From a virus: DNA of 28,266 bases. The notes under the pieces are model-generated. The model had not been told where the DNA came from and made no database searches. It was given only the letters and a program-made list of their open reading frames with translations. Below are positions 10,332-14,749 of the stretch, in pieces; the first letter of the stretch is position 1, and each line of letters begins with the position of its first letter. The translations under genes and the position numbers were made by a program. The stretch is from positions 1-28,266 of IMG/VR virus record IMGVR_UViG_3300048555_000110; one strand, 5' to 3'.

Positions 10332-10535
10332 GTGGAAAATTCTGTTGACAGAAAACTACCCGACCTTAGTAAGGATTTGCTCGACATCTTGGATGCTCGG
10401 TTTCCTTCTCGTTGTCCTGATCCTAAAGATAGTGAGCGCGAGATATGGATGAAGGTTGGTCAGAGGAAAGTCGTAGAGTTTCTACAAGACGTTTACGAAG
10501 AACAAAATACAACAATCATTTCAACAAAGGTATAA
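10332..10535 (+). CDS. Small hypothetical protein between exonuclease and head genes
   Basis: This is a 67-residue protein starting with GTG at 10332. It reads as a helical protein with LPDLSKDLLDILDARFP, then a Pro-Cys-rich SRCPDPKDSEREIWMKVGQRKVVEFLQ region. I recall similar small proteins next to the portal region in marine T7-like phages, but no function is assigned. No membrane segment or catalytic motif is visible. It fits tightly between two genes (4-base gap before, 2 after), which supports it being coding. An alternative start is not obvious, as no ATG occurs early in this frame. Confidence 0.6.
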   Translation: MENSVDRKLPDLSKDLLDILDARFPSRCPDPKDSEREIWMKVGQRKVVEFLQDVYEEQNTTIISTKV

Positions 10536-10537
10536 TT

Positions 10538-10747
10538 ATGTGCATGGGCGGCTCAACTCCTCCACCACCTCCACCTCCTCCACCACCACCGCCTCCACCT
10601 GCGGCGACAGCCGAACGCGTACAGCCTGCTCAAGCTTCCAAACGCGGTGGATCTACGGTTAAACGTAAAAGAGGTACAGCACAACTTACGCGTCCTTCTA
10701 TGGGAGGAATGGCTAAGGGAACTGCTGGTGTAAATCTTCCTAAGTAA
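10538..10747 (+). CDS. Polyproline gp7.3-like virion/tail assembly protein
   Basis: This is a 69-residue protein beginning MCMGGS followed by 14 consecutive prolines (10556-10600 region), then a basic Lys/Arg-Gly segment and a C-terminus with LTRPSMGGMAKG and GVNLPK. The C-terminal Gly-rich end resembles T7 gp7.3, a small virion protein that lies just upstream of the portal gene, exactly the position here. The upstream extension to 10445 overlaps the previous gene, so the ATG at 10538 is preferred; a second ATG follows at 10544. A 14-proline run would stall ribosomes without EF-P. The role as a tail or adsorption protein is inferred from position and C-terminal similarity only. Confidence 0.6.
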   Translation: MCMGGSTPPPPPPPPPPPPPPAATAERVQPAQASKRGGSTVKRKRGTAQLTRPSMGGMAKGTAGVNLPK

Positions 10748-12315: not shown

Positions 12316-13092
12316 ATGGGTGATTACCAAAAAGTAGAGATCAACGAACCTACTACAAACGAAGTAGAACCAGAGGAGAAACCACAAGAAGAAGCTGTCG
12401 AACAACAGCCTGAAGTACAGGAAGAGCAACAAGCTGATCGTCCTGAATGGCTACCTGAAAAGTTTGAGTCTGCCGAGGATATGGCGAAAGCTTACTCGGA
12501 ACTTGAAAAGAAGATGGGAGCAGGGGAGGAAGAAAAAGAACAAGAAGAAACAACAGAAGAGAATGAATCGGAAGAAACTCAACAAGATCTTACGGAGTTA
12601 CAAAGCCGTGTTAACGACGCTTCTACTAAATACTTTGAAAGCGGCGGTGAGATTACTGATGAAACTTATCAAGCTTTGGAAGAAGTGGGTATTAGCCGCG
12701 AGCTTGTGGATCGTTTCAAAGCTGGACAAGAGTCACTTGAAAACGCCGAGATAAGCGACATTCAATCCGCTGCTGGAGACGAGTATGAAGCGATGGCTCA
12801 ATGGGCAGGTGACAGTCTTGATGATGATGAGTTTAACGCATTTAACGAAGTGGTGAATAACGGTACTGTCCAACAAGCAAAGCTTGCAGTCAAAGGATTA
12901 TATGCGCGTTATAAATCCGAAGTGGGTGCGACGGGACCGAAGCTTGTCAGCGGAAGTACTACCGGAAGTTCCACAATGCCGTATCAATCGATGCAGGAAG
13001 TCAGTCGGGCTATGCAAGATCCTCGTTATAAGAGCGGAGATAAAGCTTATCATAACGAAGTGGATCGTCGTTTGGCGGTGTCTAACTTTTAA
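12316..13092 (+). CDS. T7 gp9-like capsid assembly scaffold protein
   Basis: This is a 258-residue, very acidic protein (T7 gp9 is 307) that should drive procapsid assembly and then leave. The first 40 residues are almost all Glu, Gln and Pro. A conserved element WLPEKFESAEDMAKAYSELEKKMG follows at about 40-65; it is common in scaffold proteins of this type. Another Glu-rich stretch comes next and then mostly helical sequence. The C-terminus has MPYQSMQEVSRAMQDPRYKSG with a basic end, the usual coat-binding portion. It lies 3 bases after the portal and upstream of the major capsid, matching T7 gene order. Confidence 0.93.
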   Translation: MGDYQKVEINEPTTNEVEPEEKPQEEAVEQQPEVQEEQQADRPEWLPEKFESAEDMAKAYSELEKKMGAGEEEKEQEETTEENESEETQQDLTELQSRVNDASTKYFESGGEITDETYQALEEVGISRELVDRFKAGQESLENAEISDIQSAAGDEYEAMAQWAGDSLDDDEFNAFNEVVNNGTVQQAKLAVKGLYARYKSEVGATGPKLVSGSTTGSSTMPYQSMQEVSRAMQDPRYKSGDKAYHNEVDRRLAVSNF

Positions 13093-13094
13093 CA

Positions 13095-13559
13095 ATGTTT
13101 GAACTGTTGACACTATTCCTTACAGGAGGCGGAAGCGCCGCGATGGGATCGCTTTTAAAAGGGGTCTTTGGTATGATAGTGGATAGTCGTCAACATAAGT
13201 ACGAGTTGGAAATGGCGAGGGAGGCGCGAAATAATGAATATGCAATCAAGTTTCAAGAGAGTCTTAACAGTGGTGATGGAGGTGCTTTTACTCGCGCTAC
13301 TCGCCGGATGCTCGCATTTATCGGAATGGGAGTCATCGCCTTCGTCACATGCCTCACAGCGGTTTATCCGTCAGTCCCAATACTCAGTACAACAAACATT
13401 ACAGGGGAAGGGCGAACAGAAATTCTTTTCGGGCTCCTCAGTTTTCCAGCAGAGCAAACCGCTATGGTCATTACAAGCGGACACCTCTGCCTCTTTGAAT
13501 GCTCCGTCGTGTTGCCGATGATTGTCGGTTTCTATTTTACACCCGGAGGAAGGAGATAA
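13095..13559 (+). CDS. Holin-like small membrane protein, three hydrophobic segments
   Basis: This is a 154-residue protein. Hydrophobic segments lie at about residues 1-28 (with a GGGSAAMGSLLKGVFG glycine-rich part), 73-98 and 120-150. Between the first two is a charged helix (RQHKYELEMAREARNNEY). TRATRRMLAFIGMG and the C-terminal MIVGFYFTPGGRR appear to be family motifs I recall from unnamed marine phage proteins, some annotated as holins. The position between scaffold and capsid is not where T7 keeps its holin, so the lysis role is inferred from topology. A second ORF is nested inside it in the +1 frame. Confidence 0.65.
   Translation: MFELLTLFLTGGGSAAMGSLLKGVFGMIVDSRQHKYELEMAREARNNEYAIKFQESLNSGDGGAFTRATRRMLAFIGMGVIAFVTCLTAVYPSVPILSTTNITGEGRTEILFGLLSFPAEQTAMVITSGHLCLFECSVVLPMIVGFYFTPGGRR
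13234..13521 (+). CDS. Nested lipoprotein ORF, candidate o-spanin (Rz1-like)
   Basis: This 95-codon ORF lies entirely within the holin-like gene in the +1 frame. It starts MNMQSSFKR, followed by a hydrophobic run VLTVVMEVLLLALL and the lipobox LAGC with Cys25, a textbook signal peptidase II site. The mature part of about 71 residues is rich in Ser and Gln, with no further membrane segment. A GGGAGG Shine-Dalgarno lies 9 bases before the ATG at 13234. Nested lipoprotein genes are the hallmark of phage Rz1 outer-membrane spanins, but the host gene here does not look like an Rz inner-membrane spanin. The mature part lacks the proline-rich feature usual in Rz1. It could be a chance frame; the signal and start site together argue against that. 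Confidence 0.45.
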   Translation: MNMQSSFKRVLTVVMEVLLLALLAGCSHLSEWESSPSSHASQRFIRQSQYSVQQTLQGKGEQKFFSGSSVFQQSKPLWSLQADTSASLNAPSCCR

Positions 13560-13681: not shown

Positions 13682-14749
13682 ATGGCTAATGGAGATACAG
13701 ATCCATCACGCGTCGGTCAGATTAACTCAGCGGGCGATGTTAACGCATTGTTCCTGAAGAAGTTTGCTGGCGAAATCCTAACGACCTTTGAAGAGAATAA
13801 CATCTTTAAAAGTCTTCACACAGTACGCACCATCGAGAATGGTAAAAGCGCTCAGTTCCCTGTTACAGGTATTGCTTCCGCTTCTTACTACACTCCTGGT
13901 CAAAACATCGCTGATTCTGGAAACAGTTACTTGAGCGACATCAAGAAGAACGAAAAGGTTATCACTATTGATGACGTCCTTCTCGCTTCTACCTTCTTGT
14001 CAAACATTGACGACGTAAAGAATCACTACGACATCCGTTCCGTCTACGCTTCCGAGCTTGGTAAAGCTTTGGCACTTCGCTTTGATAGCGCTCTTGCTAA
14101 AGTCTTTATCGCTGCTGCTCGCGAAACTACTCCTAATGTAACAGGTGGAAAACTCGGAGGAATCCTTGACGTTTCTGCTAACGCAATGGGAACAGGAGCT
14201 GACAGTTCTGATGACGCTGACAACACAGATCCAACAGGAGCTGAACTTGTCGCTGCGTTGTTTACTGCTGCTCAAAAGCTCGACGAAAACGACGTTCCTT
14301 CCGACGGAAGATTCGCAGTTCTGCGTCCTAGCGAATACTACAAGTTGATCACAGGTGCTGACGGAAACAACAGCTTCAACTTAGTATCCGCTGTAAACAA
14401 AGACATCGGTGGTCTTGGTTCTATCGCTTCAGGATCTATTCCTCAAGTAGCTGGAATCAGCATCTACAAGTCCAATCACTTGCCTTCAACTGACTTATCG
14501 GGTGGAGCAGGAATTGACGCTGGTGGATCTAACGATGTGTTCGGTGGTAACGGCGTAGGATATGACGGTAACTTCACCAACTCGCTTGGTATCGTTGCTC
14601 ACCCTGCTGCTGTAGGTACAGTAAAACTGCTTGATCTTGCTACTGAGTCTGAGTATCAGATTGAGCGTCAAGGAACTTTGTTTGTAGCGAAGTACGCAAT
14701 GGGCCACGGAATCCTCCGTCCTGAGTGTGCTATCGAATTACAGAAGTAG
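13682..14749 (+). CDS. T7 gp10-like major capsid protein
   Basis: This is a 355-residue coat protein (T7 gp10A is 345), HK97 fold by family. The N-terminal arm MANGDTDPSRVGQINSAGD is followed by the conserved ALFLKKFAGEILTTFEENN and SAQFPVTGIASASYYTPGQ sections. The spine-helix-like region ELGKALALRFDSALAKVFIAAARE is clear, and the C-terminal RQGTLFVAKYAMGHGILRPE matches gp10-like proteins. It has the strongest ribosome site in the window and a hairpin terminator right after it. There is no slippery heptamer near the stop, so a T7-like 10A/10B frameshift is not supported. Confidence 0.97.
   Translation: MANGDTDPSRVGQINSAGDVNALFLKKFAGEILTTFEENNIFKSLHTVRTIENGKSAQFPVTGIASASYYTPGQNIADSGNSYLSDIKKNEKVITIDDVLLASTFLSNIDDVKNHYDIRSVYASELGKALALRFDSALAKVFIAAARETTPNVTGGKLGGILDVSANAMGTGADSSDDADNTDPTGAELVAALFTAAQKLDENDVPSDGRFAVLRPSEYYKLITGADGNNSFNLVSAVNKDIGGLGSIASGSIPQVAGISIYKSNHLPSTDLSGGAGIDAGGSNDVFGGNGVGYDGNFTNSLGIVAHPAAVGTVKLLDLATESEYQIERQGTLFVAKYAMGHGILRPECAIELQK

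Follow-up and report, generated by a model that had tools for sequence, protein, structure and literature searches.

A lipoprotein reading frame nested in a holin-like gene of marine phages is kept by selection and may encode an outer-membrane spanin

The 28,266-base viral record IMGVR_UViG_3300048555_000110, analysed over its full length and here called the window, belongs to a T7-like phage, with matches to the corresponding PHROGs for its portal, scaffold, major capsid, tail and internal virion proteins. Next to its capsid gene lies a gene for a membrane protein (the outer gene), which contains in a shifted frame a second open reading frame (ORF; the nested gene), a candidate for an outer-membrane spanin (o-spanin). 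The features of the locus are the following:

13095..13559, + strand: outer gene, 154 codons; membrane protein with three hydrophobic segments, class I holin-like; between scaffold and capsid
13219..13224, + strand: Shine-Dalgarno-like GGGAGG, nine bases before the nested ATG at 13234
13234..13521, + strand: nested gene, +1 frame, wholly inside the outer gene; 95 codons; predicted lipoprotein precursor, candidate o-spanin
13234..13308, + strand: predicted signal peptide, nested residues 1-25, with a basic N-terminus and a hydrophobic core
13300..13311, + strand: lipobox LAGC, nested residues 23-26, with predicted lipidation at Cys26
13407..13475, + strand: most constrained part of the overlap by third-position diversity and nested residue conservation, encoding the conserved nested segment around FFSGSSVFQQSKPLWSLQ
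12316-13092: scaffold gene, T7-like, directly before the outer gene
13682-14749: major capsid gene, T7-like, after the outer gene

The nested gene spans 0.30 (start) to 0.92 (end) of the outer-gene length, and the N-terminus of its product is MNMQSSFKRVLTVVMEVLLLALLAGC. A first-pass annotation of the window had placed a fully embedded +1-frame ORF at 13234-13521, with GGGAGG nine bases before the ATG and a LAGC lipobox, and was right in each of these particulars.

Loci of the outer gene were collected by scans of IMG/VR, which covered the best 80 of 196, the best 80 of 330 and the best 80 of 309 relatives, a sample that leans towards the queries, and by one scan of bacterial genome contigs. 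With partial or cut copies dropped (L046, L047, L112, L150, L151 and L208), 204 full copies gave 112 distinct DNA sequences, all of 154 codons, which are the homologues counted below. The first 80 loci encode proteins 75-100% identical to that of the window, and one copy lies in a gammaproteobacterial contig of a metagenome-assembled genome.

Outer codons 38-129 (numbering starts at 0) contain no +1-frame stop in any of the 112 homologues. Stops in this frame occur elsewhere, at codons 4, 8, 20, 26, 27, 28 and 37 upstream and at codons 130-143 downstream, and frame +2 has stops at many places along the outer gene. The nested protein has 95 codons in 69 homologues, 91 in 41 and 84 in 2; up to nested codon 84 the frame is intact in every relative, which bears out the conservation that the first-pass annotation had proposed as a check. 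Stop-forming Leu, Ile or Val codons before a purine number 0 of 1508 inside the overlap, against 141 of 463 upstream and 139 of 468 downstream, and among the alignment columns none of the 18 within the overlap and all 11 outside it ever carry such a stop; a Fisher test on columns, in which only 10 of these 11 were entered with stops, has a p that is therefore conservative. When synonymous codons of the window's outer gene were randomised, a run of at least 90 open codons arose in 0 of 3000 trials, and randomisation of 80 sequences with the window's codon usage gave 90 or more open codons in no more than 0.2% of draws for each. Neutral synonymous evolution simulated on the tree at a four-fold diversity of about 0.52-0.67 led 69-112 of the 112 tips to acquire a stop, and simulations at lower rates, bracketing the diversity observed in the overlap, produced a stop-free outcome in 0 of 300 runs. 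A permutation of codons that keeps each gene's own usage left the frame open in 4% of draws on average and in up to 54% for one sequence; this is a weaker test, as expected, since the overlap makes up about 60% of the gene.

The overlap also evolves under additional synonymous constraint, the second check that had been suggested. Four-fold-site diversity is 0.567 over outer codons 2-45 and 0.395 in the overlap (Mann-Whitney p = 0.0008), falling to 0.377 over outer codons 72-129. Third-position diversity at 13407..13475 is 0.17-0.26, compared with 0.51-0.60 at the start of the outer gene, and diversity over all degenerate sites near outer codons 112-126 is 0.17. Both readings of the same DNA are kept by natural selection in a group of marine phages, and it is close to certain that the nested ORF is a real, selected overlapping gene.

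The signature of a lipoprotein is retained throughout the homologues. Cys26 is present in all 112 nested proteins, which is not evidence alone, as an invariant Met-Leu pair of the outer protein largely dictates this residue. The residue before the cysteine is not forced by the outer frame, and a [GA]C lipobox occurs at Cys26 or Cys32 in 112 of 112, in agreement with the lipoprotein initially predicted. Val precedes Cys26 in 23 sequences, each of which has a good second lipobox at Cys32, and the 45 sequences with no second lipobox all have Gly before Cys26. Under synonymous randomisation a [GAS]C lipobox is expected in 22.6% of cases and a strict lipobox in 7.5%, against 112 of 112 and 97 of 112 observed. 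A hydrophobic core is found in every nested protein, and the hydrophobic fraction of nested residues 16-24 is 0.86 against an expected 0.39. The bases chosen at four-fold third positions follow the same pattern, being mainly T or C in the signal core, which gives nested Leu, Val and Ala, and mainly A or C past it, which gives nested Gln, His, Ser and Pro; outer Thr100 thus corresponds to nested Gln in 102 of 106 sequences and outer Ala122 to nested Pro in 68 of 68. Asp at residue +2 after the lipobox Cys occurs in 0 of 112, and the absence of Asp at this position is the outer-membrane sorting rule of E. coli. As judged from these sequence features, the nested frame is selected as a lipoprotein.

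The AlphaFold2 model of the nested protein (predicted local distance difference test, pLDDT, 61) has a signal helix at residues 3-26 as its most confident part, one weak helix and coil for the rest, and the mature protein is 25% Ser, 13% Gln and 6% Pro. Nested protein sequences show no C-terminal hydrophobic segment, and so do not combine a lipobox with a C-terminal transmembrane (TM) segment as a unimolecular spanin (u-spanin) does.

The nested start is more variable than the body of the frame. The ATG read in the window stands but is not universal, the homologues having ATG in 85 cases, ACG in 26 and ATC in 1. All 27 homologues with no ATG at this position have an in-frame ATG 11 codons upstream; in 14 sequences a stop lies between the upstream ATG and the nested start, and all 14 have ATG at the nested start. 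The mean anti-Shine-Dalgarno duplex energy is -7.7 kcal/mol in the 85 ATG-start homologues and -4.6 kcal/mol in the 26 ACG homologues. The gene tree shows 8 changes of state for the nested start and 14 for the first lipobox; Fisher p-values for start and lipobox traits carry no kinship correction, and an independent-pairs test on the tree had no power.

All 112 homologues of the outer protein have one hydrophobic segment with its centre near residue 80 and another near residue 140, and the protein is not single-pass, in keeping with the first-pass description of a three-segment membrane protein rather than an Rz. At a Kyte-Doolittle (KD) value of 1.6, three segments are found in 73 homologues, four in 30, five in 6 and two in 3. 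The placing of basic residues, ahead of segment 2 and at the C-terminus, points to an N-out/C-in orientation, and the protein is probably a class I-type holin. Pfam gave no match for the window protein and, over 23 members scanned, a best E of 0.07, to non-holin families; PHROG matches were limited to families of unknown function (E 0.03 and 0.3), with no holin family matched. Neither frame has a Pfam match, more than weak PHROG matches or a credible relative among solved structures, and the AlphaFold2 model of the outer protein (pLDDT 39) is unusable.

A distant relative of the outer gene lacks the nested frame. One distant outer-gene member led to Roseobacter phage CRP-7 gp70 at E = 1, and the hidden Markov model (HMM) profile of the outer protein confirmed the relationship at 29 bits (E 2.9e-8), against 7 bits for the best shuffled control; tblastn of the window protein against cultured phages found no match. 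CRP-7 gp70 itself matches PHROG 38283, a family of unknown function, and its homologues are found in roseophages, pelagiphages, a Verrucomicrobia phage and a Vibrio phage, as well as in many IMG/VR contigs. The sister set comprised the 80 best IMG/VR loci minus the incomplete L274 and L312, plus nine annotated or CRP-7 loci (of 26 records), giving 87 sequences, 78 of them distinct. This CRP-7 gp70 / HTVC142P gp46 family resembles the window's outer protein in homology and in its similar neighbours, and differs in that an open +1 frame over codons 40-123 is found in 0 of 78 distinct sequences, each of which has at least 2 stops there. The longest +1 open run is 66 codons in the sister family against at least 99 in the window's family, and inspection by eye of the shifted frames of CRP-7 gp69, gp68 and gp71 revealed no lipoprotein ORF. 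The nested gene is therefore specific to one branch, in which it was probably gained by overprinting, as the distribution of open frames suggests; loss in the sister branch is the weaker alternative. The pelagiphage proteins at L324:2501-2932 and L329:2501-2932, labelled peptidase M15, are homologous to the sister family's three-segment, holin-like proteins, and their label looks wrong.

Immediately before the sister gene lies a putative lytic transglycosylase gene in CRP-5 and a cell wall hydrolase gene in CRP-603, and in HTVC142P the sister gene precedes a gene whose product resembles PHROG 20984 by eye. The first-pass annotation had confined the nested arrangement to a T7-like phage, which is too narrow: the frame is open and the lipobox present in all 112 homologues across at least three genome backgrounds, with 84 in a c1-c2 cassette or tail region, 19 in the T7-like scaffold-capsid slot, 5 in a c19/c21 setting and 4 unplaced. 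The cassette or tail background mostly includes two small genes for TM/coiled-coil proteins, c1 (105-114 amino acids) and c2 (72-83 amino acids), and the end of c1 or c2 often lies within one base of the outer-gene start. Both are present in 11 of 12 larger records, and the three c1 copies scanned match PHROG 20984. In the T7-like record G001, whose outer protein is identical to that of the window, c1 lies beyond the terminase gene and c2 after the tail fibre gene. This coiled-coil company and the hydrolase neighbours of the sister gene place the outer gene in a lysis setting, and c1 is probably the inner-membrane spanin (i-spanin) partner of the nested lipoprotein. Further PHROG 20984-type TM/coiled-coil proteins, candidate i-spanins, are encoded shortly before terminase genes in Pelagivirus-like phages (L223:5001-5384, L224:4001-4327 and L325:2936-3298).

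Taken together, a role for the nested product as an Rz1-like o-spanin, its gene lying within a holin-like and not within an i-spanin gene, is favoured with moderate confidence. The outer frame would yield an inner-membrane protein with three segments, probably a holin of the class I type, and the internal start with its own Shine-Dalgarno sequence would direct translation of the +1-frame lipoprotein precursor. This precursor would be exported, receive its lipid at Cys26 (in some lineages at Cys32) and be sorted to the outer membrane, where it would most likely act in lysis as the o-spanin of a two-component spanin, and the TM/coiled-coil protein of about 105-114 amino acids (PHROG 20984 family) would be its i-spanin partner in the inner membrane. 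Of the Rz1-type nested gene first proposed, the additional, selected lipoprotein gene stands firmly, and the o-spanin identity is conditional, with no convincing family match.

Several results weigh against this interpretation. No significant match to an o-spanin family was found, the best Rz-like spanin PHROG reaching E 0.02-0.12 among 21 members. The nested start is not ATG in 27 of 112 homologues, and the upstream alternative ATG has a weak Shine-Dalgarno sequence (mean -2.1 kcal/mol in the ACG group). Neither c1 nor c2 occurs in record G005, which does carry the nested gene, and in two pelagiphage-type records no lipoprotein ORF was present in the shifted frames of the PHROG 20984-type protein or in the neighbouring genes read. 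A separate candidate holin of 50 amino acids (c5; PHROG holin E 0.012) occurs in some lineages and makes the holin role of the outer protein uncertain. The sister gene is annotated as peptidase M15 in several pelagiphages, a label not suggested by its sequence. Finally, six endolysin Pfam families (PF00959, PF01510, PF08291, PF01464, PF07486 and PF13539, each with a working control; PF05838 was void, its control being silent) had no match in 12 records (G001-G012, 30-68 kb), which may be incomplete, and eight selected proteins of G001 and G008 showed no peptidoglycan hydrolase domain.

The available excerpts of Kongari et al. 2018 (PMC6139136) divide spanin genes into embedded, overlapped and separated classes, an embedded o-spanin lying within the i-spanin gene, and the same classes are used in the accessible part of PMC12596118. 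About 70% of embedded o-spanins start at 0.4-0.5 and end at 0.9-1 of the i-spanin gene (PMC6139136, same excerpts). Like embedded Rz/Rz1 pairs (lambda; T7 18.5/18.7), the window has a small lipoprotein gene that is read in the +1 frame of a gene for a membrane protein and has a ribosome site of its own, and the mature part of the nested protein is predicted to be mostly unstructured. It differs in that the outer gene, with two strong C-terminal hydrophobic segments, is no i-spanin gene, the candidate i-spanin being encoded separately. Lambda Rz1, as given in those excerpts, is proline-rich (10 Pro in 40; PMC6139136), whereas the mature nested protein is rich in Ser and Gln. Separated spanins such as T4 pseT.3/pseT.2 likewise have o-spanin and putative i-spanin as separate genes, but in the present case a third gene, the holin-like one, contains the o-spanin candidate, and in G001 the i-spanin candidate is far off. 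Holin genes with dual starts or embedded antiholins, as described in the portions available of PMC9144972 and PMC9025707, also give a second product from within a holin gene, which here is in another frame and a predicted lipoprotein. Among the papers listed by literature searches, none turned up a spanin gene nested in a holin-like gene.

Other small ORFs with possible spanin affinities were seen. The uncultured phage S45C18 (Ayaqvirus; AP013544.1) has in the same scaffold-capsid slot an unannotated lipoprotein ORF of 73 amino acids (L135:10888-11109), in another frame of an annotated ORF of 104 amino acids; it weakly matches an Rz-like spanin PHROG (E 0.01), and no sequence relation was found. 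Record G001 has a further small lipoprotein ORF (L139:7777-7974) with a signal, an SC lipobox and an acidic, Cys-rich tail, weakly matching Rz-like spanin PHROG 456 (E 0.0005). In the window itself, an ORF of 100 amino acids before the portal gene (10445-10747, overlapping 10332-10535) shows weak matches to a spanin PHROG and to PHROG 13568, whose function is unknown. The window also carries a tyrosine integrase gene (695-1528), which suggests a temperate option for this T7-like phage.

Among the alternatives, it is unlikely, though worth weighing, that the nested lipoprotein has a role outside lysis, such as superinfection exclusion or receptor masking, and shares its locus by chance of overprinting. 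Exclusion lipoproteins are made by other phages, and the missing o-spanin homology would fit such a role. However, the nested gene travels with the holin-like protein and the two small TM/coiled-coil proteins in tight operons, and the cell-wall hydrolases beside the sister gene fit lysis better than early exclusion.

There is a slim chance that the nested lipoprotein is itself the lysis effector where no endolysin is recognisable, in the manner of colicin lysis or single-gene lysis proteins. The lack of the six endolysin families is in line with this, as is the fact that the nested ORF is usually the sole strong lipoprotein ORF found by scan in a record; yet the records may be incomplete, endolysins may be diverse or linked to the virion, and sister phages have hydrolases beside the outer gene. 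It is comparably improbable that the holin-like gene and its overprinted lipoprotein make up a single mobile lysis locus dispersed among unrelated marine phages, with the lipoprotein itself driving envelope breakdown where no endolysin is recognisable.

It is very improbable that +1 ribosomal frameshifting from the outer gene fuses the first membrane segment to the lipoprotein part. A Shine-Dalgarno-like sequence is also able to stimulate frameshifting, and the 27 homologues with no ATG at the nested start would be explained; but the conserved part is a complete signal peptide with a lipobox, sensible only near an N-terminus, an in-frame ATG lies at the nested start or 11 codons above it in 112 of 112, and the Shine-Dalgarno sequence is stronger where the nested ATG is present.

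An open frame arising by chance, from codon bias or the outer protein sequence, draws on Cys26 and the stop being partly fixed by outer Met-Leu and Met-Ile pairs and on the own-usage permutations, and is ruled out, with practically no probability left to it, by stop avoidance, synonymous randomisation, tree simulations, third-base chemistry and the sister-family control.

If the proposed function holds, a spanin gene would here have arisen separately, through overprinting, and an outgroup family lacks the nested frame. This outgroup would make the birth of the overlapping gene datable and testable. For annotators of marine phages, it would mean that missing spanins should also be sought outside i-spanin genes.
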